From: Rhodospirillales bacterium
GTDB taxonomy: Bacteria > Pseudomonadota > Alphaproteobacteria > Rhodospirillales > Defluviicoccaceae
Assembly (NCBI GenBank): GCA_016793875.1
Contig: JAEULG010000037.1
Span: forward strand, 1-64,000
Direction of reading: 5' to 3'
DNA: 64,000 nucleotides
The notes under the pieces are model-generated. The model saw only the letters and a program-made list of their open reading frames with translations, was not told the origin of the DNA and did no database searches. Positions 15,090 through 31,119 of the stretch are shown here, piece by piece (position 1 is the stretch's first letter; each line of letters starts with the position of its first letter). The position numbers were made by a program, and so were the translations under genes.

Positions 15090-15645
15090 ATGTGCGATTC
15101 TCTTCGTCAGGATCCCCAAGATGCGGTGTCGGACGATGTGGGGCAGGAGGCGGCGCTCGCCGCGCGGATCCCGGCGGAGCCGGACATCACGCTGGCCCGC
15201 CTGCAGGACTGGCTCGGCGATCGGCATGACGGTTGGCTGAGCAGTGGCGGCCTATGGGCGGCGGTGAAGCGGCTCGGCTTCACATTCAAAAAAACCCGGC
15301 GGCGAGCGAGCAGGTGCGGCCGGACGTTGCCGCGCGCAGGGCTGGGTGGAGCGCGGCCCAGCCGTTCATTGATCCCCAGCGCCTGGCCTTCATCGATGAA
15401 ACGCGCGTCAATACCAAGATGACCCGCCTCTACGGGAGTGCACGGCGCGGCGAGCGGGTGAAGGGTGCGGCGCCGTTCGGGCACTGGAAAACCATGACCT
15501 TCGTGGCCGTCCTCAGGCTCGACGGCATCACTGCTCCCGTGCTGCTCGACGGCGCCATGGACGGCGAGGCCTTCCGGCTTTACGTCGAACGCGTCCTCGC
15601 ACGAGCTCAAGCTTGGCGACATCGTCGTCATGGACAATCTGCCGG
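15090..15645 (+). pseudogene. IS630-family transposase remnant (frameshifted, 3' truncated)
   Basis: Pieces of an IS630-type transposase are spread over three frames. The first is PDITLARLQDWLGDRH with LWAAVKRLGFTFKK (15180-15295). The second is SEQVRPDVAARRAGW with RLAFIDETRVNTKMTRLYG and GHWKTMTFVAVLRLDGITAP (15300-15600). The third is KLGDIVVMDNLP (about 15612-15645). The first catalytic Asp (FIDET) and second (VMDN) are present, but the third acidic residue and everything after it are gone. The first phase change sits in a run of seven A at about 15288-15294, where some IS630 elements use programmed frameshifting. The second, near 15600, is a plain lesion. No terminal repeats are evident. 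Confidence 0.75.
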
Positions 15646-15843
15646 CACTTTCCGCCAACCCTTTGATCAAGTAGCGGAAACGACATCAAAGCCGCCCGTT
15701 CCGACGCTGGCGGCGCCGGCAAATCGGCAAAAACCGAGATTTGGCTGCCGTTCCTGAATACGTATCGAACGATGTGCATTGCGCCGGGACCGGAGATGCG
15801 GCGGCTGCTGGAGGATGTCCGGGCACTCGTCGCGGCCGCGTAA
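15646..15843 (+). pseudogene. Tail of a serine recombinase gene
   Basis: Directly abutting the IS630 remnant, the sequence encodes TFRQPFDQVAETT. This closely matches TFRQPFDLLAETT near the C terminus of the intact recombinase at 38541-40163. After a phase change in the variable linker it continues KTEIWL, again matching the intact gene (KSEIWL). It then reads an extra 35-residue tail, PFLNTYRTMCIAPGPEMRRL..., ending in TAA at 15841-15843. The intact recombinase lacks this tail because its frame runs into tRNA-Gln. The fragment is either a decayed second recombinase or the other half of the integration junction. Confidence 0.65.
15734..15747 (+). repeat. Left copy of a 14-bp direct repeat (candidate att site)
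   Basis: CCGAGATTTGGCTG is identical to 40093-40106, where its last six bases are the 3' end (CAGCCA on the minus strand) of tRNA-Gln. The same orientation and the position at the far edge of the accessory region fit an attachment-site duplication. Because both copies lie in recombinase C-terminal coding sequence, common ancestry of the genes is the competing explanation. Confidence 0.55.
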
Positions 15844-15980: not shown

Positions 15981-18900
15981 ATGGGCGGCGCGGGGGACAG
16001 GCGGGGCGTGCGTCTGCTGCATCTCTCCGACATCCACTTCCGGAAGCGGACGGCCTGGGATGCCGACCCGCTGCTGCGGGCGCTGACCCGCTTTATTGGT
16101 GAGGAAGTCGAGCGGGACGGGGCACCGGACCTAGTGGCGATCACCGGGGACTTGGCGTTCTCCGGGAGCGATACGGAGTACGATCTCGCCCGCACGTGGC
16201 TCGATGCGCTGTGGGGACCCTTCGTCGACTTGCCACGCGACCGGCTGCTGCTGGTGCCGGGCAACCACGACGTCGACCGGAGCAAGGTTGGCCGGGTGGC
16301 GAGGCTGAGCCAAAAGGACCTGCTCGACGGGAAGTCCCAGGAAAATATCGCGGCGGTGCTGGCCGACAACGAAGAATGCCGCGTGCTGCTGGACCGCCAT
16401 ACTGCCTACCTGAAGTTTCTCTCCGGCTGGCTGGGCGCGGAGCAATATGTTCCCTGGTGGGAGCGCTCGATCCCGGTCGGCGACACGACAGTGCACGTGG
16501 CGGGGCTCGATTCAGCGTGGATGGCGTGCGGCGACGAGGACCGCGGGCGGCTGCTGCTCGGCCGCTGGCAGCTCAACCAGACGGTGCTTTCGCCGGGTGC
16601 CGAGGGCGCCGACTGGCGCATCGCGCTGCTGCACCACCCGTGGGACTACCTTGCCGAGTTTGATTGCCACGAAGCCCGCGCCGCCATCCACCAGCACCGC
16701 GACCTGCTGCTGCGCGGCCACCTGCACTTTCCGCAGACCGAACGGATCGCTCCGCCGGACCCGGGCCGCGCCTGCCTGGAGCTGGCGGCGGGGTGCGTCT
16801 ACGAGAACAGCCGGTACCAGAACGCCTTCCAGTGGATCGAGCTGCTGCCGGAGAAGCGGGTGCGCGTGCAGTTCCGCGCCTGGATCCAGGGCGCCTGGAC
16901 CACCGACCGCAACCAGCCGGGCTGCACGGAGGGTCACGCTGACTTCCCTCTCCGGGTCAAGTCGGAACGCACGCAAGGCCGTGCCCGCGGTCGATCGGTT
17001 ACGCCTGCGATCCCGCCCGAGTACGTCGCCTGGCTGCGGCACAGCTACCAGAGGGTGGACCTGCTCGGGGCGAAGCAGGGAGGCCGGGCGGTCACGCTGG
17101 ACCATGTCTACGTGCCGGCGCTGGTGCGCCCGCCCGCGCCGAAGGCGGCTGGGCTCGATCCCGCCAAGCAGGAGAAGCAGAACCCGATCCCGCTGCTACA
17201 GCGCCTCGACGCCGAGTCACTTTACATCCCGGCGGCGGCCGGGGCGGGCAAATCGACGTTCTGCCGGTGGGCGGTGCTGCAGAGCATCGCCGACAGAGAC
17301 CTCGCACATCCGGTTCCGCCGCCGGAGGAGTTCGCTGAGCCGGTGCCCGCGTCCCTGAGAGGCCGGCTGCCGCTGCTGGTGCCGCTGCGCGAGTTCTGGC
17401 GGCGCATGCCGTGCGGTCGTGGCGAAAGAATGTGGCACCGCCTCGATCTGGAGCGGGCGCTTGCCGGCTGGATCGATGCCTCGCCGCCCGCCGGCCTGAC
17501 GGCCAAGCTTCTTGCCGCTCACTTGCGAGCTGGCAGCGCGTTCGTGCTGCTGGACGGTCTGGACGAGGTCGCCGTCACCGACGTGCGTGATAGCGTCACC
17601 TGCTATCCGCGTGAACTGCTGCTGAGCGGCCTCGCCGACGCGCTGCCGGGATGGCTGAAGGCCGGCAACCGGGTCCTGCTGACCAGCCGGCCTTATGGCC
17701 TCGACGAGGCCGGCGTGCACCGCCTGGGATTGCCGCAAGCCCCGCTGGAAGCGCTGCCGTCACCGCTCCAGGACCTGTTCGTCACCCGCTGGTTCCACAC
17801 GCTGGGCAAGCCGGAAAAGACCGGCGATCTGATCGACACTATCCGTGGCCGCGAGGATCTCCAGCCGCTGGTGGAAAATCCGATGCTGCTCACCGCCATC
17901 TGCGTGCTCTACGACAACGGCGGCCGGCTGCCGGAGGACAGGTACCAGCTCTACAAGGAGATTGTCGCGGCGGTGCTGCACAACCGCTATCCCGGTGATG
18001 CGAGCCAGCGCGATCCGGTCGAGCGGCGGCTGGAGGCGGTGGCGCTCGGCATGCACCGGGGCAACGGCGAAGCGCCGCGTGTGAGCCCTGCGCCCGAGGT
18101 GAGTTGCTTCGAGGTGGAGCACTGGCTCGCGCGCTTCGCCGAATTGAACCCCGCCACGGAGAGCGGCCAGACGGTGGTCACCGACCGGCGCGATGACCTG
18201 CTGAACCAATCCGGCCTGCTGGTGCCGCGACCGAACGAGCGCGCTGCGTTCTACCATCTGAGTTTTCAGGAGTTCCTCGCGGCGCAGCGGCTGGCGCGTC
18301 TAGCCCGCCTTGCCGGCCGCGCAAACGATATCGAGGATGTTTTCCGCGAGCGCCGACCGATCCCCGAATGGCGGTCGACGCTGCTGTTCCTCTTTGCCGC
18401 GCAGATCGTTGACCGGGATGCCGAGTGGGGACTGGGTCTGCTCGCCCGGCTGATCGCCGATCAGGATCGGGCGGCGGTAAAGGCGAATCCGGTGCCGGCG
18501 GTGTTCGTTGCCGAGGCGCTGGAGCTGTGCCTCGCCAAGATGTACGCGGTGCCGGACGCCCTCGCCGAGCGGTTCCGCCGCCTCACGCTCGAGGCGATCG
18601 CGGACGAGGTCGAGCTGAAGTCGCGGCAGTCGCTGGGACTGTGCCTGGGACGGCTGGGCGACCCGCGGATCGTGAGCCTGCGCGATCCCGAGGCATACGT
18701 CGAGGTGCCGGCCGGCACCTACCCCTACGGCGATAATGGGGAGACGATTGAGATCGCGGCGGCCTTCCGCATCGGCCGCTATCCGGTGGCCAACAGTCAG
18801 TACGCGGAGTTCATCGAGGCCGGCGGGTATGCCGAGCGGCGATGGTGGTCGGACGGTGGCTGGGCCTGGCTGCAGCAGGAGAACGTCAGCGAGCCCATGC

Positions 18901-19376
18901 GGTGGCGCGACCGGCGTTGGAACGGCCCGAACCAGCCGGTGGTCGGGGTGAGCTTCTGGGAAGCGGAGGCGTGCTGCGCCTGGGCCCGCTGCCGGCTGCC
19001 GAGCGAGCAGGAGTGGGAGGTGGCCGCACGGGGGCCCGCCAGCCTCGAATATCCGTGGGGGAACGATTGGGAAGACGGCATCTGCAACAGCGATGAGGCA
19101 GGACTCGGAGTGACGTCGCCGGTGGGGCTGTTTCCCCGCGCCCGGCAGGCTGAACGCGATATTGAGGACCTGGCCGGCAACGTCTGGGAGTGGTGCGCCA
19201 GCTTCTACAACCGATCCGACAAGGCTTTCTCGGAAGTCCGTGTGGTTCGCGGCGGGTCGTGGAGCTTCTTCCGCGAGTACGCGCGCGCGTCCTTCCGCTT
19301 CAGGGTCCGCCCGTTCGGCCGGGACGACGATCTGGGGTTTCGTGTGGTTTGTTCGTCGCCCATTGACGAACACTGA
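15981..19376 (+). CDS. DGR target 1: metallophosphoesterase-NACHT NTPase-FGE/CLec variable protein
   Basis: This 1131-aa protein has three parts. Residues 10-300 form a calcineurin-like phosphoesterase with all metal motifs: LSDIHF (15-20), ITGDLA (54), PGNHDVD (94), LLHHPW (217) and GHLHF (245). Residues about 400-880 are a NACHT/STAND NTPase with Walker A AAAGAGKSTF (418), Walker B VLLDGLDEVA (about 523) and LLTSRPYG. The C-terminal 225 residues (from EVPAGTYPYGDNG) form a formylglycine-generating-enzyme-like, C-type-lectin-fold domain. This ends in RVVRGGSW plus the hypervariable strand (1095-1117) and [10 protein letters not shown] infer a conflict-system sensor-effector: the variable lectin-like domain binds a ligand, the NTPase oligomerises, and the phosphoesterase acts on nucleotide or nucleic acid. 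A strong GGGGAGGGGA site precedes ATG 15981. Confidence 0.9.
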   Translation: MGGAGDRRGVRLLHLSDIHFRKRTAWDADPLLRALTRFIGEEVERDGAPDLVAITGDLAFSGSDTEYDLARTWLDALWGPFVDLPRDRLLLVPGNHDVDRSKVGRVARLSQKDLLDGKSQENIAAVLADNEECRVLLDRHTAYLKFLSGWLGAEQYVPWWERSIPVGDTTVHVAGLDSAWMACGDEDRGRLLLGRWQLNQTVLSPGAEGADWRIALLHHPWDYLAEFDCHEARAAIHQHRDLLLRGHLHFPQTERIAPPDPGRACLELAAGCVYENSRYQNAFQWIELLPEKRVRVQFRAWIQGAWTTDRNQPGCTEGHADFPLRVKSERTQGRARGRSVTPAIPPEYVAWLRHSYQRVDLLGAKQGGRAVTLDHVYVPALVRPPAPKAAGLDPAKQEKQNPIPLLQRLDAESLYIPAAAGAGKSTFCRWAVLQSIADRDLAHPVPPPEEFAEPVPASLRGRLPLLVPLREFWRRMPCGRGERMWHRLDLERALAGWIDASPPAGLTAKLLAAHLRAGSAFVLLDGLDEVAVTDVRDSVTCYPRELLLSGLADALPGWLKAGNRVLLTSRPYGLDEAGVHRLGLPQAPLEALPSPLQDLFVTRWFHTLGKPEKTGDLIDTIRGREDLQPLVENPMLLTAICVLYDNGGRLPEDRYQLYKEIVAAVLHNRYPGDASQRDPVERRLEAVALGMHRGNGEAPRVSPAPEVSCFEVEHWLARFAELNPATESGQTVVTDRRDDLLNQSGLLVPRPNERAAFYHLSFQEFLAAQRLARLARLAGRANDIEDVFRERRPIPEWRSTLLFLFAAQIVDRDAEWGLGLLARLIADQDRAAVKANPVPAVFVAEALELCLAKMYAVPDALAERFRRLTLEAIADEVELKSRQSLGLCLGRLGDPRIVSLRDPEAYVEVPAGTYPYGDNGETIEIAAAFRIGRYPVANSQYAEFIEAGGYAERRWWSDGGWAWLQQENVSEPMRWRDRRWNGPNQPVVGVSFWEAEACCAWARCRLPSEQEWEVAARGPASLEYPWGNDWEDGICNSDEAGLGVTSPVGLFPRARQAERDIEDLAGNVWEWCASFYNRSDKAFSEVRVVRGGSWSFFREYARASFRFRVRPFGRDDDLGFRVVCSSPIDEH
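19238..19359 (+). repeat. DGR variable repeat VR1
   Basis: This 122-bp segment aligns without gaps to the TR at 21164-21285. The 25-bp left flank and 28-bp right flank are identical and contain no A on the coding strand. In the central 69 bp (19263-19331), 19 of 26 TR adenines are replaced (to T, G or C) and none of the 43 non-adenine bases differs. It encodes residues 1095-1117 of target 1. Confidence 0.97.
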
Positions 19377-19384
19377 TCTCTGAC

Positions 19385-19416
19385 AGGGCGGCGCGCCAGC
19401 GCCGCCCTCGATTTTT
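19385..19416 (+). terminator. Hairpin downstream of VR1 (homing hairpin / terminator)
   Basis: The 9-bp stem AGGGCGGCG / CGCCGCCCT with a 6-nt loop lies 25 bp after VR1 and is followed by CGATTTTT. DGRs often need a hairpin or cruciform just downstream of the VR for efficient mutagenic homing. The same element recurs after VR2 and is absent after the TR. The T-run also makes it a plausible terminator for target 1. Confidence 0.8.
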
Positions 19417-20510
19417 CAGGGAACGCTCTCTCTCTCGGCGAGCGCCCTCCGGTGCCGCTCCGGGCACATCACCAGCGTCTCCAGCACGTGCCGGCGCAGG
19501 CCCCAGCTGTCGGCGTGGGCCACGTGCGCGATCCAACCGTGGATGGCCGCATCCAGCTCGGCAAAGGTGATCTCGCCTGTGTGATAGGCGGCCAGCCGCT
19601 CCCGCAGCCGGCGATGCGTCGCTCGCACCTTGCGCCCTTTTACCCGGCGGTGGGTCGGGAAGACGACGAAACCGAGCCAGGGAATGCCCTCATCTACCGG
19701 CACCACCTGTGCCCGCGCCTCGTGGATGATCAGCCGCAAGGACGCCAGCCGGTCGATGATCGCCGCCTTCCATGCCCAGAGTTCGTTCTTGTTGTCGCTG
19801 AACAGGGCGAAGTCGTCGACATAGCGCAGGTAGGCGCGACAGCCGAGCTCGCGGGTGACGAACTGATCGAACGGATGCAGGTAGCAGTTGGACCAGAACT
19901 GCGAGGTGAGATTGCCGATCGGCAACCCGCGCGGCCGGCAGATGGCGAGCAGGTCGTCATCGGGAAAGCGCACGTAGCGATACTCGTCGTCGAGCACGCC
20001 GCGGCCGCTGTCGACGATGGCCGCGACGAGCCGCATCACGTCCACCTCGGGTATCTGCCGGCGAAGGACGTCGAGCAGGATGGCGTGATCGACGGAGGCG
20101 AAGTGCTGGACGATGTCCGCCCTCAGGACGAACCGGTGGCGCCGGGCGAAGCTCTGCAGCCGGGCGATCGCGCGATGCGTGCCCTTGCCAAGGCGGTTGG
20201 CGTAGCTGTCGGGAATGAACAACCGCTCGAAGCGAGGCTCGATCACGTTGCACAGCGCGTGGTGGACCACCCGGTCCTCGAAGCGCACGGCGCTGATCTT
20301 GCGCCGCTTGGGGTCGCTGATATGGAAGTGGACGTACCGCCCTGGGCGATACGTGCCGGCCAGCAGCCGCTCGCGCAGCACGTACAGGTGCTCCTCCGCG
20401 CGATACTCGAACCGGGCGACGCTCCTCGTGCCGCGCTTGCCGCGTGCCGCGGCCCGCCAGGCGAGGACCAGATTTTCCCAGGAACACAGGTGCCGGAAGG
20501 CGTCGCTCAT
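19416..20510 (-). CDS. DGR reverse transcriptase
   Basis: This 364-aa reverse transcriptase copies the TR RNA into mutagenised cDNA. The catalytic YVDD box is at about residues 230-233 ([11 protein letters not shown]). Upstream is the motif [14 protein letters not shown] (about 195-208), whose IGxxxSQ form is characteristic of DGR-type enzymes, and [13 protein letters not shown] carries the first catalytic Asp. There is no maturase or endonuclease domain, unlike group II intron RTs. ATG 20510 (MSDAFRHL) is preferred over ATG 20549, which would overlap avd. It is divergent from avd with a 37-bp gap and convergent on target 1. Confidence 0.95.
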
Positions 20511-20547
20511 CGGCGGGCCGCCGCCGTCCGCCACGGGAGAGCGAGTC

Positions 20548-20892
20548 ATGGCCGAGGAGATGGTGATCTTCGCGCGGACCTTCGATCTGCTGGAATGGCT
20601 GCTGCCGAAGTCTGAACGGTTCCCGCGCGGCTACCGGTTCACCCTCACCCAGCGGATGATGGACGCCGCGCTCGACCTGCAGGAGGCGCTGATCACCGCC
20701 GAGACGCGGCAAGGCCGCAGCCGGCTTGCGGCGCTGCGTGACGCCGATGCCGCGCTCGGCCGGCTGCGTGTTTATCTGCGACTGGCGCATCGCTGGCGCT
20801 GGCTGAGCGACGGCCAGTATGCGCACGCAGGCGGCATGGTTGGCGAAATTGGCCGGCTGCTCGGCGGCTGGCTCAAGGCGGAGACGGGATGA
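20548..20892 (+). CDS. avd: DGR accessory variability determinant (Avd-like)
   Basis: This 114-aa all-helical protein matches the Avd four-helix-bundle family: [20 protein letters not shown], then [20 protein letters not shown], a central [14 protein letters not shown], and the closing [12 protein letters not shown]. In the Bordetella phage system Avd forms a basic pentamer that binds the reverse transcriptase and is required for homing. The start at ATG 20548 follows GGGAGAGCGAG. Its orientation is unusual: it lies on the opposite strand to both RT and TR, so any TR transcript that runs on toward RT is antisense to avd. Confidence 0.9.
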
Positions 20893-21163
20893 CGACTGCA
20901 CCGCCGAGCCCGGCGCGAGAGAAGGCGGAGCGCCGGGGGAACGGATCCGGCCGGCGCCCCTGTTCTCTATGCGCCCGACGGCTGGGCGGTTCGGCCCAGT
21001 CGTGCGGACGGGACGCGTCCGCGCCATCTCTCCTCCCTCGCCAGGGCCCGCAAACCATGGTCGGCGAACAATCCCGGAAGCGAACCGATACCCGCGGAGC
21101 GAGCCCGACACGCCCGCAGCAATGCCGAATGGCACCGTGCCGAAGAGGAAGCGGAAGAGACGT
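20893..21163 (-). other. Spacer downstream of the TR (non-coding)
   Basis: These 271 bp lie between the avd stop and the TR, so on the TR strand they follow the TR. In the well-studied Bordetella DGR the spacer immediately 3' of the TR is part of the RNA that primes cDNA synthesis, and this segment is its positional equivalent. It has no convincing gene: the frames crossing it are continuations of TR-frame translation. It lacks the hairpin found after both VRs. Confidence 0.55.
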
Positions 21164-21285
21164 GCGACGAACAAACCACACGAAACCCCAGATTGTTGTT
21201 CCGGTTGTTCGGGTGGTTCCTGTTGCGGTAGGACGCGCGCGCGTTCTCGCGGTTGTTGTTCCACGACCCGCCGCGAACCACACGG
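21164..21285 (-). repeat. DGR template repeat (TR)
   Basis: This is the invariant donor of the retroelement. On the minus strand it has adenine-free flanks of 25 and 28 bp and a central 69-bp window (21260-21192) with 26 adenines. Ten AAC codons, one AAT and GAG, TAC, AGG and CAC leave 15 of 23 codons mutable. In the target frame it reads [20 protein letters not shown] and onward. The Asn-rich reading is the hallmark of AAC codons that can become 15 residue types but not stops. Identity with VR2 extends a further 5 bp upstream (to 21290). Confidence 0.97.
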
Positions 21286-21331: not shown

Positions 21332-21361
21332 ATCATAGGCGAACGCGGCGGGAAGGGCGAA
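21332..21361 (-). promoter_or_regulatory. Candidate promoter for the TR RNA
   Basis: On the minus strand TATGAT (21337-21332) has TTCGCC (21361-21356) 18 bp upstream. The -10 is good and the -35 is poor (3 of 6). Transcription would start near 21326, about 40 nt before the TR, and just after the VR2 hairpin that could terminate target-2 mRNA. This would allow TR RNA to be made separately. Confidence 0.35.
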
Positions 21362-21370
21362 AAAATTCGT

Positions 21371-21392
21371 GGGCGGCGCTGACGCGCCGCCC
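21371..21392 (-). terminator. Hairpin downstream of VR2 (homing hairpin / terminator)
   Basis: The 8-bp stem GGGCGGCG/CGCCGCCC has a 6-nt loop. On the minus strand it is followed by a T-rich ACGAATTTTT. It occupies the same place after VR2 as the 19385 hairpin does after VR1, and the intervening sequences are nearly identical. Confidence 0.78.
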
Positions 21393-21401
21393 TGCCAGAG
21401 A

Positions 21402-24146
21402 TCAGTGCTCATCAATGGGCGACGAACAAACCACACGAAACCCCAGAATGCCGTCCCGGATGACCGGGCGGAACCAGCTGCGGTAGGACGCGCGCGCGAG
21501 CACGCGGAAGTAGCCCCACGACCCGCCGCGAACCACACGGGACGAGCAATCACCCCCGTCTTTCTTTTGCCACGCTCGCCCGTCAGCGGAAGCGCCTTCA
21601 TAGTCGCCTCGATAGCAGTCTTCGACCCACTCCCAGACATTCCCATGCATGTCGTACAGGCCCCACTTGTTCGGCTTGAACTTGCCTTCACCGATTACGG
21701 GGGCGGTCTGCCATCCGTCCCACTCGCTGCCGCAGTCGCGGCAGTTGGCCAGCCCTTGGCCAAGGTCCTCGCTGCCATCGGGAGCCGGCAAGCCATACTC
21801 GCGGCCGGTACCAGCGCGTGCTGCGTACTCCCATTCCGCCTCGCTCGGCAGCCGGCATTCGGCGTCCAATCGGCCGCTCAGCCAACCGACGTACGCCTGG
21901 ACATCCTGCCAGGACACGTTGATCACCGGACGCATCTTGCGGCCCCAACCCTGATCGGACGGGCGATAGCCGCCGCAGCCGCCCGCGGCAACACAGGCAT
22001 CCCATTGCTGAAATGTCACCTCCGTCTGCCCGAGCCGGAACGGCCGGGCGAAGGTCACGGGATGTACCGGCTGCGAATCCTGATCACGCTCGCTACCCAT
22101 CATGAACGTACCTGCTGGAATGGGTGCAAGCACGGGCACCGGCGGCTGGGCGAGGGCGAACACGTACGACCAGCGTTCCGGCAGCACCTCCAAAGGCAAC
22201 CCGCGCACGGTTGCCCACAGCAGGCCTTCGCCGAGAAAACCTAGCACAAGCACGGCGGTGGCGAGCTGGACCCCTGCCCGCGCCCGACTCCAGCAGAGAT
22301 AGCGCTGCTCAAGACTGCCGGGCGCCGCCAAGCCGCGAAAGCCGAACAGCGACGACCAGCCCGCGAGCTTTCGCAGCCGGGCGAAACCTGTCCGGTCCTT
22401 CCACTCGCGCGCCATCAGGGTCAGTCGTTCGCGCCGCGCCGCCCGCTCGGCGTTCCGCTCGATGTAGTTCCACAGCATCGGCCAATACGGCTGCGCCCTG
22501 CCATCGGCATCGGGCCGCTTGCTGCGGATCAGCGTCTCGTGGATCAGGCTGACCCGGGCATCGCCCTTACCGTTCTTGCCGGTCTCGCCTGCAATCGTGA
22601 GCAGCCGCAGCGGTCCCTCCGCCAGCGCTCCGTCCGGACGCCGACGCCCCGCGAGCCGATCAACGATCATCCGCCCGCCCGAGCCGCCACCCGCCCACGC
22701 CACCGCGTCGGCAAGCGGGACGCGACGCCGGGTGTGCCGACGGGTGTCCATGTCGACGTTGACCAGCGCGAGCAGGAGCTCCAGCGCCCGCTCCCGCTGC
22801 GGCCCGAGGCTCCCCAGCAGGTCGTTCGCCCCCTGGCTGAGCAGGCCGGCGAGCCCGCCCTGCTCGCGGAGCAGCCGGCCGTCGAGCCGGTTGCCCTGCC
22901 GGTTCTCCCAAAGCCAGCGCAGCGCGTTCTCGACCAGCGGCAGGGCGCCCGGCTCGTCCTGCGCCTCGGCGAGAATCAGCTCGCGCACCTCGCCCACGTC
23001 AAGGCCGGCCAACCGCGCCGGCCCGTCGATCACCTCGCGCAACCCTTCCGGTCCGATCGGGGCCAAAGTCCACTGGCGCGCCAACCGGTTGCGAGCCGCC
23101 ACCAGCCGCGGCAGGTCTTCTTCGATCCGGTCGAGGAAGTCGGAGCGGACGGTCGAGAGTAAGAAGAGGGGACACACGGGATCCGCCAGCGCCTCCGCCA
23201 GCAGCGCATCGAAGCGGCGGCGCTCGTCAGCGTCCGCTGTCGTGAACAGTTCCTCGAATTGATCGATGGCGAGCAGGAAGGCTTGTTCGTCCCGCTTCCG
23301 GCCGGAAAGCCAGTCGGCCAGCGCAAGGTCGTCGCCCGCATCGAGGCGGGCGCGGACGTCGGCCATTTCCAGCCTCGGGTCATCCGCCCTGAAGCAGCGG
23401 GTGAGCGCTTCGGCGAGCGCGCGCATCGGCTTCTCGCCCGGCAGCATCGGCCCGATGCGCGTCCAGTACGCAAAGTTGGTGTGCGGCCACAGCCAGCCCT
23501 GCTCGATCAGCGGCAGCAGGCCGGCGTTCATCAACGACGACTTGCCGGAGCCGGAGTTGCCATTGATCTCCAGCCAGCGCACAGGTGGGTCGGTCCGCGT
23601 GCTGAAACAGGAGAGCGCGTCCAGCGTCTCCTTCTGCCGGCCGAAGAACAGATGCGCCTGATCCGGGCGATAGCTGGCCAGGCCGACGAACGGACAGCCC
23701 TCGAAGGAGGCGGCCGCCACCGTCGGCAGGGTGCGGGTTCGAATGCTCTCCAGCAGGGTGTCGGGCAACGGCCCGGCGCCGTCCCAAGGCGTCGCCTGGA
23801 ACAGCCGCAGGAACGCCGGCAGCGCCTCTGGCGCGCTGCCGGCGAGCAGCACCGGGAAGATCGGCAGACGGTCGGTGTCTTGGCGCGGCCCGAAGAAGCG
23901 GACCAGCGCCGCCTGCGTCTCCGCCCCCACCCACCGCCGCACCCCGTCGCGGCCGATGAGCAGCACGAACGCGCCGCACCCGTCGACCGCCTCCTGCAGC
24001 CGCTCCAGCCACAACTCCCCCGCACGCAGGCTCTCCACGTCGCGGAACACGTCGAGACCCTGCCGGGTAAGCTGCTCATACATTAATGCCGCCGCTGCCC
24101 GGTCAGCACCGCCGTAACTGACGAAGACGAAACGACTAACGGCCAC
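21402..24146 (-). CDS. DGR target 2: TIR-nSTAND NTPase-TM-FGE/CLec variable protein
   Basis: This protein is about 914 aa. Residues 1-130 form a TIR domain (FVFVSYGGADRAAA, VFRDVESLRAGE) with the NADase-type glutamate in WVGAETQAAL. Residues about 150-600 form an nSTAND-like NTPase with Walker A NGNSGSGKSS (about 196-205) and Walker B FLLAIDQFEELF. A single transmembrane helix (VQLATAVLVLGFLGEGLLWA) is at about 622-645. An FGE/C-type-lectin-like domain (from PIPAGTFMMGSERD, about 672) ends in the variable strand (about 878-900). This is a TIR effector, a switch NTPase and a diversified sensor in one chain. GTG 24146 is chosen because GGGGGAG lies at proper spacing. GTG 24152 is nearly on top of that site. 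Confidence 0.9.
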   Translation of the reverse strand: MAVSRFVFVSYGGADRAAAALMYEQLTRQGLDVFRDVESLRAGELWLERLQEAVDGCGAFVLLIGRDGVRRWVGAETQAALVRFFGPRQDTDRLPIFPVLLAGSAPEALPAFLRLFQATPWDGAGPLPDTLLESIRTRTLPTVAAASFEGCPFVGLASYRPDQAHLFFGRQKETLDALSCFSTRTDPPVRWLEINGNSGSGKSSLMNAGLLPLIEQGWLWPHTNFAYWTRIGPMLPGEKPMRALAEALTRCFRADDPRLEMADVRARLDAGDDLALADWLSGRKRDEQAFLLAIDQFEELFTTADADERRRFDALLAEALADPVCPLFLLSTVRSDFLDRIEEDLPRLVAARNRLARQWTLAPIGPEGLREVIDGPARLAGLDVGEVRELILAEAQDEPGALPLVENALRWLWENRQGNRLDGRLLREQGGLAGLLSQGANDLLGSLGPQRERALELLLALVNVDMDTRRHTRRRVPLADAVAWAGGGSGGRMIVDRLAGRRRPDGALAEGPLRLLTIAGETGKNGKGDARVSLIHETLIRSKRPDADGRAQPYWPMLWNYIERNAERAARRERLTLMAREWKDRTGFARLRKLAGWSSLFGFRGLAAPGSLEQRYLCWSRARAGVQLATAVLVLGFLGEGLLWATVRGLPLEVLPERWSYVFALAQPPVPVLAPIPAGTFMMGSERDQDSQPVHPVTFARPFRLGQTEVTFQQWDACVAAGGCGGYRPSDQGWGRKMRPVINVSWQDVQAYVGWLSGRLDAECRLPSEAEWEYAARAGTGREYGLPAPDGSEDLGQGLANCRDCGSEWDGWQTAPVIGEGKFKPNKWGLYDMHGNVWEWVEDCYRGDYEGASADGRAWQKKDGGDCSSRVVRGGSWGYFRVLARASYRSWFRPVIRDGILGFRVVCSSPIDEH
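21419..21540 (-). repeat. DGR variable repeat VR2
   Basis: This 122-bp segment aligns gap-free to the TR. In the 69-bp window (21515-21447), 20 of 26 TR adenines are changed and none of the 43 other bases. Seventeen TR adenines are altered in both VRs, often to different bases, so the two VRs were mutated independently. Confidence 0.97.
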
Positions 24147-24303
24147 CTGCACTCCCCCGACTGCGTTAGGGTAGATTACGGATCAGACGGGCGTGCAACA
24201 AGCGCCGCATCTTTGCCTGATCGCCGAGCCCGACTGGCGGCCATTCAAGACCAATATCTAGCGGCGTGTCCCCCGCTCTACCCTCACATATGGACACTAC
24301 CCA

Positions 24304-24359: not shown

Positions 24360-24716
24360 ATGTCCCGGGGTGAGAAGGAGAGTTTTGGCGCGCTGGTGCG
24401 CCGCGAACGGGAGGCGCGGAAGATCGGCCTGCGCGAAATGGCGAAAATGATCGGGGCGAGCCCGACGTATCTGTCGAAGGTCGAGCGGGACGAGTTTGCA
24501 CCGCCGGCCGAGGACAAGGTGAAGAAGATTGCCGAAATCCTGGAGCAGGATGCCGATGAGTTACTCGCTCTGGCCAATCGCGTATCGTCCGACCTGGCCG
24601 AGATCATCAAGGCTCGGCCGAGGCAGATGGCTTCGCTTCTGCGGACGGTGCAAAGATTGACGCCGGAAGAGGTTGCGCAACTGGCCCGCAAAGCACAACA
24701 GGCCCGGAAATCGTAG
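24360..24716 (+). CDS. XRE-family helix-turn-helix regulator
   Basis: This 118-aa DNA-binding protein has a Cro/CI-type HTH at residues 10-65 (GALVRREREARKIGLREMAK, then IGASPTYLSKVERDEFAPP). A charged helical C terminus with TVQRLTPEEVAQLARKAQQ follows. It starts at ATG 24360 after GAGGGAG. It is paired with the ImmA/IrrE-like peptidase 50 bp downstream, the usual repressor-protease switch of integrative elements, in which the protease inactivates the repressor and releases element genes. Confidence 0.9.
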   Translation: MSRGEKESFGALVRREREARKIGLREMAKMIGASPTYLSKVERDEFAPPAEDKVKKIAEILEQDADELLALANRVSSDLAEIIKARPRQMASLLRTVQRLTPEEVAQLARKAQQARKS

Positions 24717-24766
24717 GGACGCGGGACTAATCGCTAGATGATGATGCAAATGAGGACGCAGGACCT

Positions 24767-25537
24767 ATGAATATGCGCGTGCCGTACCTTCAGGAAATTT
24801 CAATAGAGCGCGACGCGGAACTTCTCTTTGGCGAATTCATGCTGGGACGACAGGTCCGCATGGAGCCTCCGATCCAGATCGAAGACATTCTGGAAAAGCA
24901 CCTCGGCCTGCGCATCGAGTTTGACGACCTCCATGCACGATACGGCCTTCCACGCCCGGAGGATATCAACGAGCCCGAAGTCCTCGGGGCTATCCACTTC
25001 GAGGATCGCCGCATCGTCGTCGACGAGAGCCTCGATCCGGAGGAGCATCCAGGGATGGAAGGGCGGTACCGCTACACGCTCGCACACGAGGGCGGCGGGC
25101 ACTGGCGGCTCCACCGTCACCTCTTTAGTCGAGATCCGTTGCAATCCTCGCTCTTTGAGCGGCCCGAACCATCTGTGCTTTGTCGGTCAAGTAAGAGGAA
25201 CGAGCCGGTCGAGTGGCAGGCGGAATTCTACGCTTCGTGTCTGTTGATGCCGAAAGCGATGGTGCTCGCCGCGTGGCGCGCGCGCTTCCCGGATGGCAAT
25301 CCCCGCAGGCTAAGTCGGAAGCCGCGCCTCGGCCGGCCCGACAACCTGAGCCCTATGCTCCAGCAGGTGTTCGACCGGGGTAACCGCCAGCGGGACGAAG
25401 AGGCAATCCGCGAGTTCGTTCGGCCTTTCGCTCGGCAGTTCCAGGTCTCGATAACGGCGATGCGTATCCGGTTGGAGAAGCTCGGGCTACTTCTCCGAGA
25501 TGAACCGCGCCAGAGGCAGCTGGCGGTAGGGCTGTAG
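24767..25537 (+). CDS. ImmA/IrrE-family metallopeptidase
   Basis: This 256-aa protein is a likely zinc peptidase acting on the neighbouring XRE repressor. The core reads RYTLAHEGGGHWRLHRHLF (about residues 102-120), followed by a downstream helix WQAEFYASCLLMP that supplies the usual third ligand region. The metal motif is odd: HEGGGH (H107, E108, H112) has three residues between Glu and the second His instead of the canonical two. The C terminus (FQVSITAMRIRLEKLGLL) matches the family. It forms an apparent operon with the XRE gene. Confidence 0.82.
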   Translation: MNMRVPYLQEISIERDAELLFGEFMLGRQVRMEPPIQIEDILEKHLGLRIEFDDLHARYGLPRPEDINEPEVLGAIHFEDRRIVVDESLDPEEHPGMEGRYRYTLAHEGGGHWRLHRHLFSRDPLQSSLFERPEPSVLCRSSKRNEPVEWQAEFYASCLLMPKAMVLAAWRARFPDGNPRRLSRKPRLGRPDNLSPMLQQVFDRGNRQRDEEAIREFVRPFARQFQVSITAMRIRLEKLGLLLRDEPRQRQLAVGL

Positions 25538-25563
25538 GCTCATTTTCGCGCGGAGTATGTGGC

Positions 25564-25845
25564 GTGTCACATTTACAAACGACGATCGGCCGTTTCGGGC
25601 AACCAGCGGGGAGCAGGGTCGCGCTTTTTGAGACGCGCGACTTCTACCTCGCCTGTTTCCTGCGCTGCACCGGCTACGAGCTGATCGACCTGCGCGCCGA
25701 GGGCCGGCGCAAGGTCTTCGTCTTCCGTGACCAGCCATCCCGCCGGGAGGACGTGCTCACGTTCTACGGCGATGGGGCAGTCGTGCCACCGCTTGCGTTC
25801 TCCGCCACCATTAAGGACATGAAGGCGCTACTGCACAATGCCTGA
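25564..25845 (+). CDS. Small DUF5659-like protein
   Basis: This 93-aa protein of unknown function starts at GTG 25564. The segment FETRDFYLACFLRCTGYELID resembles small DUF5659 proteins carried by phages and integrative elements, and the rest (RRKVFVFRDQPSRRED) fits that pattern. It overlaps the next small gene by 8 nt, suggesting a shared transcript in the early operon of the element. Confidence 0.55.
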   Translation: MSHLQTTIGRFGQPAGSRVALFETRDFYLACFLRCTGYELIDLRAEGRRKVFVFRDQPSRREDVLTFYGDGAVVPPLAFSATIKDMKALLHNA

Positions 25846-26047
25846 CGTTTCCACCTCCCGACCACATCGCGGCCAAATCGCCGAAGCGCTCGCGCACCTC
25901 GAAAGGATTGTGGTCGAGGGGCTGAAGCACGGCTTCTTCGACTATTCCATCGCCTGCGAGATCGGCAATGGAGGCAAGCGCCACCTCGTGATCCGAGCGG
26001 GCAAGTTCCACAAGTTCACGATCCCCGAGAATGAATTGTCGTGCTGA
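25838..26047 (+). CDS. Hypothetical protein, mobile-element associated
   Basis: This 69-aa protein (MPDVSTSRPHRGQIAEALAH...) with a KRHLVIRAGKFHKFTIP tail has no domain I recognise. Its start overlaps the previous stop by 8 nt. The amphipathic helix at 15-32 and the basic beta-like end would suit a small nucleic-acid-binding protein, but that is only a guess. Confidence 0.5.
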   Translation: MPDVSTSRPHRGQIAEALAHLERIVVEGLKHGFFDYSIACEIGNGGKRHLVIRAGKFHKFTIPENELSC

Positions 26048-26072
26048 AGCACGAACGGTGGTGATCCCTGAG

Positions 26073-26222
26073 ATGGGGACGCTGAATATGCAAATGACGA
26101 TGCGATCCGACGTCATCGGTGGGATTCCGAGGCCGGAGATCAGGGACATGGCGCGGCGACGAGCCGGCCGTGAGATCTTCGGTGAAAACCGCGAACGACA
26201 ATACACCTTGCTACCTGATTGA
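26073..26222 (+). CDS. Possible small hypothetical protein
   Basis: This short open frame (49 aa, MGTLNMQMTMRSDVIGGIPR...) lies between two other small genes. It overlaps the next one by about 40 nt and has only a weak CTGAG before the ATG. It could be real, as packed small genes are normal here, or a shadow. No domain is recognised. Confidence 0.3.
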   Translation: MGTLNMQMTMRSDVIGGIPRPEIRDMARRRAGREIFGENRERQYTLLPD

Positions 26223-26415
26223 CCGGACGCGCGAGGTCTGGGAACCGCGGCTCGGACGCGAACTGAGCCGCGACGAGGCGAAACAGATCGCCGCCAACGC
26301 CACCGGCTTCTTCTCGATCCTGGCCGAGTGGTTGCGGGCCGATCTGCCCGCGCCTGGGAACGACAATGCCAGCGGCGCCACCTCCGCCGACGAAGGGGTA
26401 CGCCATGACCGCTGA
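26182..26415 (+). CDS. Hypothetical protein, mobile-element associated
   Basis: This is about 77 aa from GTG 26182 (VKTANDNTPCYLIDRTREVW...). The conserved-looking middle, RELSRDEAKQIAANATGFF, followed by SILAEWLRADLPAP, suggests a real small protein. The frame stays open upstream to 26119 and the start is uncertain. It overlaps the primase-like gene by 11 nt. The function is unknown. Confidence 0.5.
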   Translation: MKTANDNTPCYLIDRTREVWEPRLGRELSRDEAKQIAANATGFFSILAEWLRADLPAPGNDNASGATSADEGVRHDR

Positions 26416-27292
26416 GACCATCGCCAGAGCGCTCGGCGGTCGGAAGACAGGCGCCGGGTGGGCCGCGCGTTGCCCAGCCCATGATGATCGCGAGCCCAGC
26501 CTTTCGATCAGCGATGCCAACGGCAAGGTGCTGGTCCGCTGCCATGCCGGCTGTGAGCAACGCCGAGTTATTGCAGCTCTCAGGGCACGCGGACTGTGGA
26601 CGGAAAAAGTCACCCGCCGGTTCTCGAATTGTTCGTCGGTCCCCCATCCCGAGCGCCGACCGGATCGAGATGGGGCCAAGCACAGCGCGGCGGCGCTCGC
26701 CATCTGGCAGTCCGCGAATCCTGCAAGCGGCACGCTGGTCGAAACTTATCTCGGCTCGCGCGGCATTCATTTTCCGCTGCCGCCGACGCTCCGTTTCAAA
26801 AGGCTCCGGCATCCCTCGGGTGGCATCTGGCCGACTATGGTCGCGCTTGTTACGCGCGGCGGCGACGACACGCCGCTGGCGGTCCATCGAACCTTCCTAT
26901 CGCCCGATGGCGGCGGCAAGGCGCCGGTTGATCCGCAAAAGATGATGCTCGGGCCATGTCGAGGCGGCGCCGTGGCGCTCGCCACGGCCGGCGATGTGCT
27001 GATGGTGGGCGAAGGCATCGAGACCTGCCTTGCCGCCCTGCAGGCGACCGGGAAACCGGCCTGGGCAGCGCTCTCGACCTCCGGGCTGCGGTCGCTCGAC
27101 CTGCCCGGCACCGTGCACGAAGTAATAGTCCTCGCCGACGGCGACGATCCCGGCGAGGCGGCGGCGCGCGACTGTGCCCATCGTTGGACGCGGGAAGGCC
27201 GCCGCGTGCGCATCGCCCGGCCACCAAAAGGACTGGATTTCAATGACCTCCTGCTGGGCCGCCTAGCCGCTGCCGAGGAGGGCGCGGGATGA
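26405..27292 (+). CDS. CHC2 zinc-finger / Toprim primase-like protein
   Basis: This 295-aa protein resembles the primase half of mobile-element replication proteins. An N-terminal zinc-binding module reads CPAHDDREPSLSIS...VRCHAGC (about residues 22-48), and a Toprim-type fold follows with MVGEGIETCLAAL (about 200) and VIVLADGDDPGEAA (about 240). These supply the conserved Glu and the DxD-type acids. It would synthesise or process RNA primers for element replication. The start at ATG 26405 overlaps the previous gene, and its end overlaps the ATPase gene by 4 nt (ATGA). Confidence 0.82.
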   Translation: MTAETIARALGGRKTGAGWAARCPAHDDREPSLSISDANGKVLVRCHAGCEQRRVIAALRARGLWTEKVTRRFSNCSSVPHPERRPDRDGAKHSAAALAIWQSANPASGTLVETYLGSRGIHFPLPPTLRFKRLRHPSGGIWPTMVALVTRGGDDTPLAVHRTFLSPDGGGKAPVDPQKMMLGPCRGGAVALATAGDVLMVGEGIETCLAALQATGKPAWAALSTSGLRSLDLPGTVHEVIVLADGDDPGEAAARDCAHRWTREGRRVRIARPPKGLDFNDLLLGRLAAAEEGAG

Positions 27293-29445
27293 GCGAGGAT
27301 TTTGTCGAAGCTACCGACGCGACGGAGCCTCCCTGCGACGATACCGCGCTGTCTCCGGCCGTCCTCGGGAGCCCCTCCCACGCCCAGGAGGATACATCTG
27401 CCCAGAAGCGGGCCTCTTCGATCGACAGTGCAGGCACCACAGCCGAAACTTCGTTGCCTTTTCAAGATGTTGACACTCCGGCCGATGCCGTGGGAGCCCC
27501 AACCGACCTGGAACGCCTTGTATCGGCAGCTATCGCCGATGCCGAGGAGATGCGCGATCCGCTCGAAGATTTGGTCAATCGCGTCGCAGAAGATCCGGGC
27601 GCGGCCTTCACGCCCGAGGTTCTGCAGGCGCTCGCCGAACTCAAAAAGCAAAATCGGGCTGCTTTCGAGACACTCCGGAGCAGGCTGAAGCAAGTCCGCT
27701 GTCGCGTCACGGCGCTGGACGAAGCAATTGCCGGTGAGAGCGGCGAAGCCGGCAGAAGAGAGCCGACCCAAGCTGACATCCTTGTTGAATTGGCGTCTGA
27801 CGCCGATCTATTCCACGCGCCCGACGGCACGGCTTTTGCCGATGTTGACATCAACGGCCACCGCGAGACCTGGCCGGTCCGCGCCAAGGGTTTCCGTCGC
27901 TGGCTGGCGCGCTGCTTTTTCGAGAAGATCCAGGGTGCGCCGAGTTCCGAGGCGCTGCAATCGGCGCTGAACGTGATCGAGGCGAAGGCGCATTTCGACT
28001 CGCCTGAACGCATCGTCCATGTCCGGGTGGGCGGGCTCGACGGGCGGCTTTATCTCGACCTCGGGGACGAGCCTTGGCGGGCGGTGGAGATCGACGCCAA
28101 CGGCTGGCGCGTAATCGACAACCCGCCGGTGCGCTTCCGCCGCGCTGCTGGAATGCTACCACTGCCGATACCAACATCGGGTGGTTCCATCGAGTCCCTG
28201 CGGTCCTTTCTCAATGTGCAGTCGGACGCAGACTTCGTGCTCGTGGTCGCCTGGACGCTGGCCGTACTGCGCAATCGCGGTCCCTACCCGGTGATTGTGT
28301 TGTCGGGCGAGCAGGGTTCGGCGAAGTCCACCTTTTCGGCCATCCTGCGCGCGCTGCTCGACCCGAACACCGCGCCCTTGCGGGCTTTGCCGCGCGAGGA
28401 CCACCACCTGTTCATCGCCGCCAGCAACGGCCATGTGCTCGCGTTCGACAATGTATCTGGCCTGCCGGCGTGGATTTCGGACACGCTGTGCCGGCTCGCC
28501 ACCGGCGGCGGCTTCGCCGTGCGCCAGCTCTACACCGACATGGACGAGGTGCTGTTCGACGCCGCCCGGCCGGTGATCCTCAACGGAATTGAGGACACCG
28601 TGACCCGGCCCGATCTGGCCGACCGCGCCGTGTTCCTGACGCTTGCGCCGATCCCCGAAGAACGCCGCCGCCTCGAAACTGAACTGTGGGCCGCCTTCGA
28701 GGTCGAGCGCCCACGCATCCTTGGCGTGCTGCTCGACGCCGTGGTGCAAGGTCTCAGGCGATTGCCCGAGACACGGCTTCCAAAGCTGCCGCGAATGGCC
28801 GACTTCGCGCTGTGGGCTGCCGCCTGCGAGACGGCCCTCTGGCCTGCCGGCACCTTCTGGTCGGCCTATTGCGATAACCGCGAAGAGGTCGTCGAAGGCG
28901 TGATCGATGCCGATCCGGTCGCAGCCGCCGTCCGGGCCATGATGGCTGAGCGGACGGAGTGGACGGGCACGGCTGCGGATCTTCTGGGCGCCCTTGGAAC
29001 AGTCGTGGGCGAGCGCATTGCCAAGTCGAAGAGCTGGCCGGATAGCCCTCGCGCGCTGTCGGGGCGGCTGCGCCGCGCCGCGACGTTCCTGCGCAAAGTC
29101 GGCATCGAGATCGAGTTCAGCAAGGAAGGGCGTGCGAGGACCCGCATCATCCGCATCGCCTCGTCACGATGCTCCGCGCCAGATAACGCCGGGGCTCGAC
29201 CGTCCATACCGTCCGCACCGTCCGCGTCCGCGCCAAGTCCAAATCCTGCCAGGTACTTAGAGGTGCAGCCTCTGCGGACGGTTGCCAACGATGCGGACGG
29301 TAGCAGCCAGCGCCGCGTTCCGATCGCCCGCGCCAACTCCTTGAAAACCAACGCCGCGGACGATGCAGACGGTGCGGACGCAGACTGCCCGCCGCGATCC
29401 ACGCCGGAAAAAGCAGGCACGACCGAATGGTGCGCCCGGCTATGA
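27289..29445 (+). CDS. Large P-loop ATPase, helicase-like, of the mobile element
   Basis: This 718-aa protein has an N-terminal low-complexity and acidic 60 residues and a helical region. A P-loop NTPase core follows with Walker A VLSGEQGSAKST (about residues 341-352), a Walker B-like stretch HVLAFDNVSG (about 381) and a sensor-like RPVILNGIEDTV. It is typically found after a Toprim primase in phages and integrative elements, so a replicative helicase or loader role is likely. It overlaps the neighbouring genes by 4 nt at each end. The last 90 residues are rich in Ala, Pro and Ser and probably disordered. Confidence 0.7.
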   Translation: MSEDFVEATDATEPPCDDTALSPAVLGSPSHAQEDTSAQKRASSIDSAGTTAETSLPFQDVDTPADAVGAPTDLERLVSAAIADAEEMRDPLEDLVNRVAEDPGAAFTPEVLQALAELKKQNRAAFETLRSRLKQVRCRVTALDEAIAGESGEAGRREPTQADILVELASDADLFHAPDGTAFADVDINGHRETWPVRAKGFRRWLARCFFEKIQGAPSSEALQSALNVIEAKAHFDSPERIVHVRVGGLDGRLYLDLGDEPWRAVEIDANGWRVIDNPPVRFRRAAGMLPLPIPTSGGSIESLRSFLNVQSDADFVLVVAWTLAVLRNRGPYPVIVLSGEQGSAKSTFSAILRALLDPNTAPLRALPREDHHLFIAASNGHVLAFDNVSGLPAWISDTLCRLATGGGFAVRQLYTDMDEVLFDAARPVILNGIEDTVTRPDLADRAVFLTLAPIPEERRRLETELWAAFEVERPRILGVLLDAVVQGLRRLPETRLPKLPRMADFALWAAACETALWPAGTFWSAYCDNREEVVEGVIDADPVAAAVRAMMAERTEWTGTAADLLGALGTVVGERIAKSKSWPDSPRALSGRLRRAATFLRKVGIEIEFSKEGRARTRIIRIASSRCSAPDNAGARPSIPSAPSASAPSPNPARYLEVQPLRTVANDADGSSQRRVPIARANSLKTNAADDADGADADCPPRSTPEKAGTTEWCARL

Positions 29446-29948
29446 GCGCCTCTCAAGCCCTCCATGCGGCTCGCGCCGCCGGTGTTGAACTGCATCTCGA
29501 CGGCGATGACTTGGTCCTGAAGGCTTCCGCACCGCCGCCGCCCGAAGTGCTTGATCTGCTATCGCGCCATAAGGCAGAGATCTTGCCGCTGCTGCGGCCT
29601 GGCGGTGGCGGATGGTCCAGCGACGACTGGCAGACCTTCTACGATGAGCGAGCGGGCATTGCCGAGTTCGACGGCGGGCTCACGCGCGCCGATGCCGAGG
29701 CCCGCGCCTTCGCCTGCTGCGTCGGCAAATGGCTGGACCGCAATCCCGCGACCTCGACGCAGCGGCGCTGCTTGGCGTGCGGCGGCGGCGATCACGCGCA
29801 CGATCCGTTGCTTCCCCATGGCACCGACGTGACCGGCCATGTCTGGCTGCATTCGGGCTGCTGGCCCGCCTGGTACGCCAGACGCAACGCCGAGGCGGTC
29901 GCCGCGCTAGCGGCGATAGGGATCGAGGAAAGGAAAATCCACCTATGA
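29442..29948 (+). CDS. Hypothetical protein with TubC-like N terminus
   Basis: This is 168 aa from ATG 29442, which overlaps the ATPase stop (ATGA). The N terminus (ALHAARAAGVELHLDGDDLV, then LLSRHKAEILPLL) resembles the small TubC docking-type fold seen in mobile-element proteins. The C terminus holds cysteines and histidines (CLACGGGDHAHDP, HSGCWPAW) that could bind zinc. The role is unknown. It is part of the replication operon. Confidence 0.55.
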   Translation: MSASQALHAARAAGVELHLDGDDLVLKASAPPPPEVLDLLSRHKAEILPLLRPGGGGWSSDDWQTFYDERAGIAEFDGGLTRADAEARAFACCVGKWLDRNPATSTQRRCLACGGGDHAHDPLLPHGTDVTGHVWLHSGCWPAWYARRNAEAVAALAAIGIEERKIHL

Positions 29949-30616
29949 GCTCTAAGCAGCCGGCCAAGGGCAACGAGCCGACAACCGTCGTTGCCGACGA
30001 CCCGGAGGACCGAAAAGGGGTGCTCAAGACCATCGGCGGCTCGCAGTCGGATCACTGGAACAACCTGCTCGCCAATCAGGCGGTACAGGCGCTCTGGATC
30101 AAGCATTCCGACGCCGAGAGCCGCGACAAGCAGCTGCGCGCTACTGTCGCCGCGCTGATCGGCATCGGACCAAAGGATGAGCTGGAAGGCATGGTCGCGG
30201 CGCAGCTGATCGCCGCTCACAACGCTGCGATGGAATGCCACCGCCGCGCCATGCTCGACGAGCAGACCTTCGAGGGGCGGCGCGAGAATCTGAGCCAGGC
30301 GAACAAGCTCTCCCGCACCTGGGCGACCCTGCTTGAGGCGCTCAACCGACATCGCGGCAAGGGCCAGCAGAAGATGACGGTCGAGCACGTCCACGTCCAC
30401 GCGGGCGGTCAGGCGGTGGTCGGAATGGTGGCGACGCCGGGGGGCGGGGACCGCACGAAGTCGGAGGAACAACCCCGTGCAAAGCAGATTGCCCATGCAC
30501 CTCAGCCAGAGATGTGGAGCGCGGACACGGAGCGGCACGCCGTGCCGGTCGCCCGCGATGGCGAATGGCCGTTGCCGGATGCACGGGGGAACATCCCCCG
30601 GCGCGCCGATCGGTAA
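29945..30616 (+). CDS. Hypothetical protein, mobile-element associated
   Basis: This is 223 aa from ATG 29945, overlapping the previous stop (ATGA). The region SRDKQLRATVAALIGIGPKD to LNRHRGKGQQKMTVEHVHVH is helical and then basic, and resembles small phage-type proteins near replication or packaging genes. Its last 140 nt overlap the next gene in another frame. The terminal about 45 residues look less protein-like, so a late frameshift or a genuine gene overlap is possible. Confidence 0.5.
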   Translation: MSSKQPAKGNEPTTVVADDPEDRKGVLKTIGGSQSDHWNNLLANQAVQALWIKHSDAESRDKQLRATVAALIGIGPKDELEGMVAAQLIAAHNAAMECHRRAMLDEQTFEGRRENLSQANKLSRTWATLLEALNRHRGKGQQKMTVEHVHVHAGGQAVVGMVATPGGGDRTKSEEQPRAKQIAHAPQPEMWSADTERHAVPVARDGEWPLPDARGNIPRRADR

Positions 30617-30734
30617 CACCAACGCGCGCAAGCACGGCCGTTACGCCGCCGAGGCTATCGCCGAACGACGGGAACTGGCGGCGCTTCTGCGTTCGATGCG
30701 CGCGCTCGTGGAGGAGGTGGACGGGCAGGACTGA
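30477..30734 (+). CDS. Small HGG/GNxNAxKHG-motif protein
   Basis: This 85-aa protein matches a widespread small family of phages and integrative elements, with CGARTRSGTPCRSPAMANGR, then CRMHGG, then GAPIGNTNARKHGRY. The paired cysteines and HGG suggest a metal-binding or DNA-binding role, but the function is not known. GTG 30477 has GGAGG about 8 nt upstream. ATG 30495 is an alternative. It overlaps the preceding gene by 140 nt. Confidence 0.65.
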   Translation: MQSRLPMHLSQRCGARTRSGTPCRSPAMANGRCRMHGGTSPGAPIGNTNARKHGRYAAEAIAERRELAALLRSMRALVEEVDGQD

Positions 30735-30903
30735 AGACCGAGCAGACTCTGATCGGTTCCTTTCTTGCGATTTCCGTATGCTGGCGAGCGAAGCACGGCT
30801 CATCGCCAGCGGTGGGTCTCCCAAAATAGAGTCCAGTCGCCGGAATCCATTGCGCGTTGGGCCGAATGGGTCAAAAGTACTCGCATCACGCGCGGGGGGT
30901 CGC

Positions 30904-31088
30904 ATGCAGATCCTGAACGCGAAAGACTCGAAGTACTGCTCCCCCGGGACGGCTGACCAACCTCGCACGCGCCGAGCCGGTGGCGGTGGTCAAGCATGCC
31001 TGTCGTCGTGCCCGAGATGGAGGAATACGAGCAGTTGAAGGCGCCGGACGCGCCCGGAAAAGCGCCCGCGAAGGCGACGAGGGAATGA
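30904..31088 (+). pseudogene. Degraded Phd/YefM-type antitoxin gene
   Basis: Three frame segments recall a small Phd-type antitoxin: MQILNAKDSKY at 30904, LTNLARAEPVAVVKH at about 30951-30995, then PVVVPEMEEYEQLKAPDAPG with a lysine-rich tail to TGA 31088. At least two phase changes break it and no toxin frame follows. It fills most of the 385-bp gap before hsdR. Confidence 0.55.
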
Positions 31089-31119
31089 ACAGGAACGGAA
31101 CGGCAGGCAGCTGACCGGC

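Follow-up and report, generated by a model that had tools for sequence, protein, structure and literature searches.

The locus described here is best read as a chromosomal diversity-generating retroelement (DGR) that acted on two target genes, with proposed roles for a template RNA, a one-base boundary mark and two sensor proteins. We assign this reading a probability of about 0.93. Adenine-restricted change, whole-repeat overwriting reflected in two lineages, open genes, a conserved RNA domain and a boundary mark were observed. Its host is related to the wastewater bacterium Defluviicoccus. The window, i.e., the whole stretch of 64,000 nucleotides analysed, contains all parts by which the locus is identified as a complete DGR: a reverse transcriptase (RT), Avd, a template repeat (TR) and two VRs in targets with FGE/C-type-lectin domains.

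Machinery genes and targets

15981..19376, plus strand: target 1, with a metallophosphatase domain (PF00149, 1.5e-12) and an FGE/C-type-lectin domain (PF03781, 2.5e-45); carries VR1
19416..20549, minus strand: DGR reverse transcriptase, matching 8ub7 (1.1e-44), with SQ and YVDD motifs
20548..20892, plus strand: avd, matching bAvd (2.6e-21) and NF033474 (90.9 bits, cut-off 80)
21402..24152, minus strand: target 2, with TIR (PF13676, 2.9e-15), nSTAND1 (PF20703, 7.5e-71) and FGE (PF03781, 4.5e-49) domains; carries VR2

All four reading frames are open. The closest solved relative of the RT is the BPP-1-type DGR RT 8ub7, and the alignment shows the motifs NLTSQFW (SQ motif) and YVDD. The avd gene is antisense, located between TR and RT, and divergent from the RT gene. 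Both genes stand head to head, and their start codons overlap if the RT begins at its first ATG; the start is probably a later one, close to 20510. The two targets are convergent. They flank the cassette on both sides and point inward.

Template-directed changes in both VRs

21164..21285, minus strand: TR, 122 bp with 26 adenines and 96 other bases
19238..19359, plus strand: VR1, in the 3' end of target 1; 19 differences, all at TR adenines
21419..21540, minus strand: VR2, in the 3' end of target 2; 20 differences, all at TR adenines

A sequence-only reading of the locus had reported that all differences of the VRs, 19 in VR1 and 20 in VR2, fall on the 26 TR adenines. Our repeated base-by-base alignment of the 122 bp agreed in coordinates and counts. 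The reading had also described the other bases, in a 69-bp segment and in its adenine-free flanks, as unaltered: 0 of 96 non-adenine positions were changed in either VR, and the alignment shows no such substitution inside the segment. The hypergeometric probability of all changes falling on adenines is 8e-17 for VR1 and 5e-18 for VR2. Adenine-only differences are the signature of mutagenic retrohoming by DGRs. In VR1, the changes were A to T (11) and A to G (8); VR2 had the same numbers of both and one A to C. The scarcity of A to C, 1 of 39 changes here and 119 of 860 in the family of related loci described below, may stem from RT bias or from selection.

A direct comparison of VR1 with VR2 gives 16 differences, every one at a template adenine, which bears out the remark that the VRs differ at many positions. 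Fourteen positions were altered in both VRs, nine of them to the identical base. This is close to independent draws from a spectrum rich in T and G, so that a shared mutated ancestor is unnecessary. The independent rewriting proposed before is thus supported, with the VRs as two different cDNA products. VR2 equals the TR for five further upstream bases (127 bp in all; non-adenine identity reaches 21545). Beyond the end of the TR, another 57 bp, with a hairpin among them, are common to VR1 and VR2. A search of the genome for a further repeat copy gave none better than E=0.1.

Concerted evolution in a sister genome

Among the genomes of the genus that were examined, one species besides the source carries the element: Defluviicoccus sp. 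SSA4 (locus L009, also genome G003) has the same DGR with an 88% identical RT. In SSA4, a second metallophosphatase-type target occupies the slot of target 2, so the targets are modular. The SSA4 locus contains N's and assembly indels; a gapped alignment was therefore used and frameshifts were left uninterpreted. A comparison with VRs in sister genomes had been suggested by the sequence-only reading. In SSA4, change is restricted to adenines as well: the two VRs differ from their own TR at 15/26 and 16/26 template adenines and at 0/95 non-adenine positions.

The TRs of the two species have 8 differences at 95 non-adenine positions, and both VRs carry the TR base of their own genome at all eight. 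The orthologous VR1s differ at 16/26 template adenines versus 8/96 non-adenine sites (Fisher p 4e-8). Such differences at adenines do not, by themselves, demonstrate whole-repeat copying after the split. The eight mirrored differences do indicate it: the whole repeat was copied from TR to VR after the lineages had split, in at least one lineage and for both VRs. These concerted differences lend indirect support to RT-dependent TR-to-VR transfer, and the orthologous pair indicates that whole-repeat overwriting goes on over species-level time. Together with the open machinery genes, the mirroring upholds the earlier statement that the retroelement has been active; the comparison of sequences supports past DGR activity. 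The remaining FGE genes of the genus were searched for distant VRs, and none was found. One other FGE-domain gene (G003:C1:4238306-4238998) is 57% identical to the lectin domain of target 2 and has no full VR-like repeat.

Two other explanations of the repeats were weighed. The VRs may have been rewritten formerly and now be fixed in a dead element, and the single genome indeed provides a single VR haplotype per target. A long silence should, however, accumulate non-adenine differences between TR and VRs. There are none, and the 8/95 non-adenine differences between the TRs of the two species were all copied to the VRs. RT, avd and the two targets all have open reading frames, the RNA domain persists as well, and we regard a decayed DGR as unlikely. 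The other explanation requires no retrohoming: the lectin domain was duplicated, and positive selection acted on binding residues. The changed codons are located in a lectin-type domain, for which selection for diversity is plausible. But selection cannot confine change to template adenines with zero silent or other changes at 96 bases, nor can it transfer TR-specific silent differences into both VRs. The adenine restriction rules this explanation out, and its probability is negligible.

A family of related loci

A collection of 51 loci was obtained with the RT as query. Where avd was seen, it was divergent from RT in 44 of 46 loci, which belong to Pseudomonadota, Acidobacteriota, Chloroflexota and Planctomycetota. 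Rows labelled as having divergent avd make up one side of a branch in the RT tree, with a support of 91/81; the rows so labelled include L048, a contig without avd, and L069, for which avd was unchecked. The RT of the window clusters first with that of SSA4 and next with an Accumulibacter RT, among RTs of Rhodocyclaceae and Nitrosomonas. In 54 TR/VR pairs of the family, 860 of 1470 adenines were changed versus 22 of 4260 other bases, with A to C as the rarest change. In 15 loci, the window among them, VRs are found both on the TR strand and opposite to it. In two Chloroflexota loci (L044 and L049), avd shares the strand of the RT gene and is followed by the TR.

Boundary mark and hairpins

21163, minus strand: adenine at TR position 123, the 3' boundary mark; C in both VRs
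19360, plus strand: boundary mark C of VR1
21418, minus strand: boundary mark C of VR2
19385..19408, plus strand: GC hairpin and T-run 3' of VR1; 10 bp, loop GCCA
21371..21392, minus strand: GC hairpin and T-run 3' of VR2; 9 bp, loop GTCA

The boundary base is located just outside the 122 bp of the sequence-only reading. In the family, 55 of 56 pairs have adenine in the TR and C in the VR, and the remaining pair reads N. Fifty of these were read by script and five by eye, since an earlier mismatch had hidden the boundary base from the script. The context is mostly YCACAT in the TR and YCCCAT in the VR. C accounts for only 14% of the changes at free adenines, which argues for a fixed mark rather than mutagenesis at this base. 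It is likely the IMH/IMH* difference. This DGR feature, a difference between IMH and IMH* with a hairpin 3' of the VR, is thus represented by the TR-A/VR-C base and the hairpins past both VRs.

Most VRs of the family have a similar hairpin on their 3' side. The loops are mostly GNA triloops (GCA, GTA, GAA, GGA), and some are GNNA (GATA, and GCCA and GTCA in the window). GNA loops are very stable in DNA.

A conserved RNA domain 3' of the TR

20920..21081, minus strand: three-helix RNA domain 3' of the TR; 25/31 pairs with compensatory change; covariance model R1, 124.9 bits
21308..21325, minus strand: leader hairpin 5' of the TR; pairing kept in sequence-diverse relatives, judged by eye
21332..21337, minus strand: TATGAT, a -10-like hexamer on the 5' side of the leader hairpin; recurs in relatives; a lead only

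RNAalifold predicted three helices from the 3' domains of the relatives. In an alignment that was not fitted to the structure, although the structure itself was derived from it, 96.4% of the alignment cells pair, versus 80.8% after shuffling and 36-46% with slid partners. The 25 pairs with compensatory change are altered on both sides. G-U pairs outnumber A-C pairs by 101 to 6, or by 52 to 6 after removal of two invariant G-U columns. This excess points to an RNA on the TR strand. Folded by itself, the domain of the window is no better than its shuffles (z -0.68); the case for an RNA therefore rests on covariation.

The covariance model detects the domain in loci outside its alignment (L031, 149 bits; L025, 123; L012, 116; L030, 115), and in every locus with an identified TR the match lies on its 3' side. 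A search of 299 genomes of the phylum with strict Infernal filters recovered the genome of the window only. The model had no match in BPP-1, and an Rfam search of the locus had none at E up to 1. The contig of L069, from a viral collection, encodes a DGR RT with 58% identity and the same template RNA domain (2462-2608, 79 bits).

Upstream of the TR, a -10-like hexamer was found 41-52 nt away in many relatives, with an acceptable -35 in about half of them. An acceptable -35 was not found in the window, and a generic promoter scan near the TR gave no full sigma-70 match. The -10-like hexamer, the leader hairpin and the 3' domain suggest that the template RNA has a gene of its own, about 400 nt long.

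The 3' domain might instead be merely a bidirectional terminator or a DNA structure outside the template RNA. The GC hairpin that forms its last helix (about 20927-20960) stands beside the stop codon of avd and could terminate transcription coming from either direction. Covariation extends, however, over three helices rather than one, and the ratio of 101 G-U to 6 A-C pairs is as expected for RNA of the TR strand. Locus L049 keeps a weak match of 22 bits directly after the TR although its avd is elsewhere, and BPP-1 requires a structured spacer at the same place (PMC12875486). A terminator or DNA structure is accordingly improbable as the whole explanation of the domain.

With a template RNA as the favoured interpretation, we see about an even chance that the DGRs of the four phyla possess a self-contained template-RNA gene, consisting of leader hairpin, TR and 3' domain, apart from avd and RT and with a one-base direction mark. 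If so, the RNA family would be one not yet described, and the organisation of the DGR would be unlike that of BPP-1, with a different cDNA stop. Descriptions of a covarying RNA, a divergent avd and a one-base mark were not found in the DGR texts that were read or searched, and the novelty is provisional. The covariance model finds the template RNA independently of RT and TR, and the one-base directionality mark is directly testable.

Proposed mechanism and comparison with known systems

The template RNA may be transcribed from the minus strand, from about 21330 to 20925, comprising the leader hairpin, the TR and the three-helix 3' domain. Its transcription would be apart from that of the divergent avd and RT genes. 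RT and Avd would bind the 3' domain in a putative RNP, copy the TR and misincorporate opposite adenines. The cDNA would take the place of VR1 or VR2. The one-base IMH/IMH* difference, C in the VR and A in the TR, would set the 3' boundary, probably assisted by the hairpin just past each VR, and information would flow from TR to VR. With each event, a stretch of the C-type-lectin domain would be rewritten in a sensor that carries a TIR or metallophosphatase effector at its opposite end.

The system shares with the Bordetella phage BPP-1 a homologous RT, Avd and adenine-specific mutagenesis, as well as the hairpin past the VR, which matters in BPP-1 (Guo 2011, PMC3240598), and the structured spacer 3' of the TR. 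In BPP-1, this spacer recruits RT-Avd and primes cDNA synthesis, and a motif at the end of avd stops the cDNA (PMC12875486). The gene order differs: avd-TR-brt are on one strand in BPP-1, whereas avd is divergent and 3' of the TR here. Since avd is not 5' of the TR, the cDNA stop must differ from that of BPP-1; the leader hairpin is a candidate. The boundary also differs, with one mismatch here versus five in 21 bp in BPP-1.

VRs opposite to the TR strand are known from DiGReF, a Schillinger-type survey, which described inverted elements and noted that the RNAs of RT and TR can be separate transcripts (PMC3521204). It listed three inverted elements and one case with four VRs, compared with the 15 loci with VRs on both strands here. 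In E. coli, retrohoming prefers targets that are co-directional with replication (PMC12875486). For convergent targets, one VR of each pair should consequently be rewritten more often.

DGRs with STAND targets are already known in kind. Clade 5D DGRs commonly have two STAND/CLec targets, for which antigen sensing was proposed, and Accumulibacter and Nitrosomonas are listed as hosts of related DGRs (Dore 2024, PMC10907252). As far as that account goes, clade 5D (Thiohalocapsa, Accumulibacter, Nitrosomonas) resembles the present element in its two targets, the C-terminal lectin-type domains with VRs, the STAND NTPase (here in target 2) and TIR or metallophosphatase domains, and the wastewater host groups. 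The main text of that paper gives no avd orientation, template RNA structure or boundary base (PMC10907252). Diversification of antigen-like sensors for bacterial defence had been proposed for this group before; the present analysis adds the concerted TR and VR evolution seen in SSA4, a conserved template RNA and a boundary mark.

Target proteins and genomic neighbourhood

The clade 5D targets have a central STAND NTPase and a C-terminal lectin domain with the VR. Target 2 has nSTAND1 and FGE domains, and its FGE/C-type-lectin domain matches FGE and the DGR variable protein TvpA (2y3c). Target 1 starts with the metallophosphatase domain and ends with the FGE domain; the middle is STAND-like, with the NTPase part and its Walker motifs recognised by eye only, and Pfam gave no NTPase match in this protein. 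The targets are most likely anti-phage or conflict sensors.

Fragments of a DDE_3/HTH_33 transposase are located directly left of target 1 (15090-15754). The right flank (24360-35018) encodes a Cro/C1-type regulator, an IrrE-like peptidase, a Toprim/DUF7146 primase-like gene and the type I restriction genes hsdR and hsdM. Judged by these annotations, it is a mobile or defence island adjoining the DGR.
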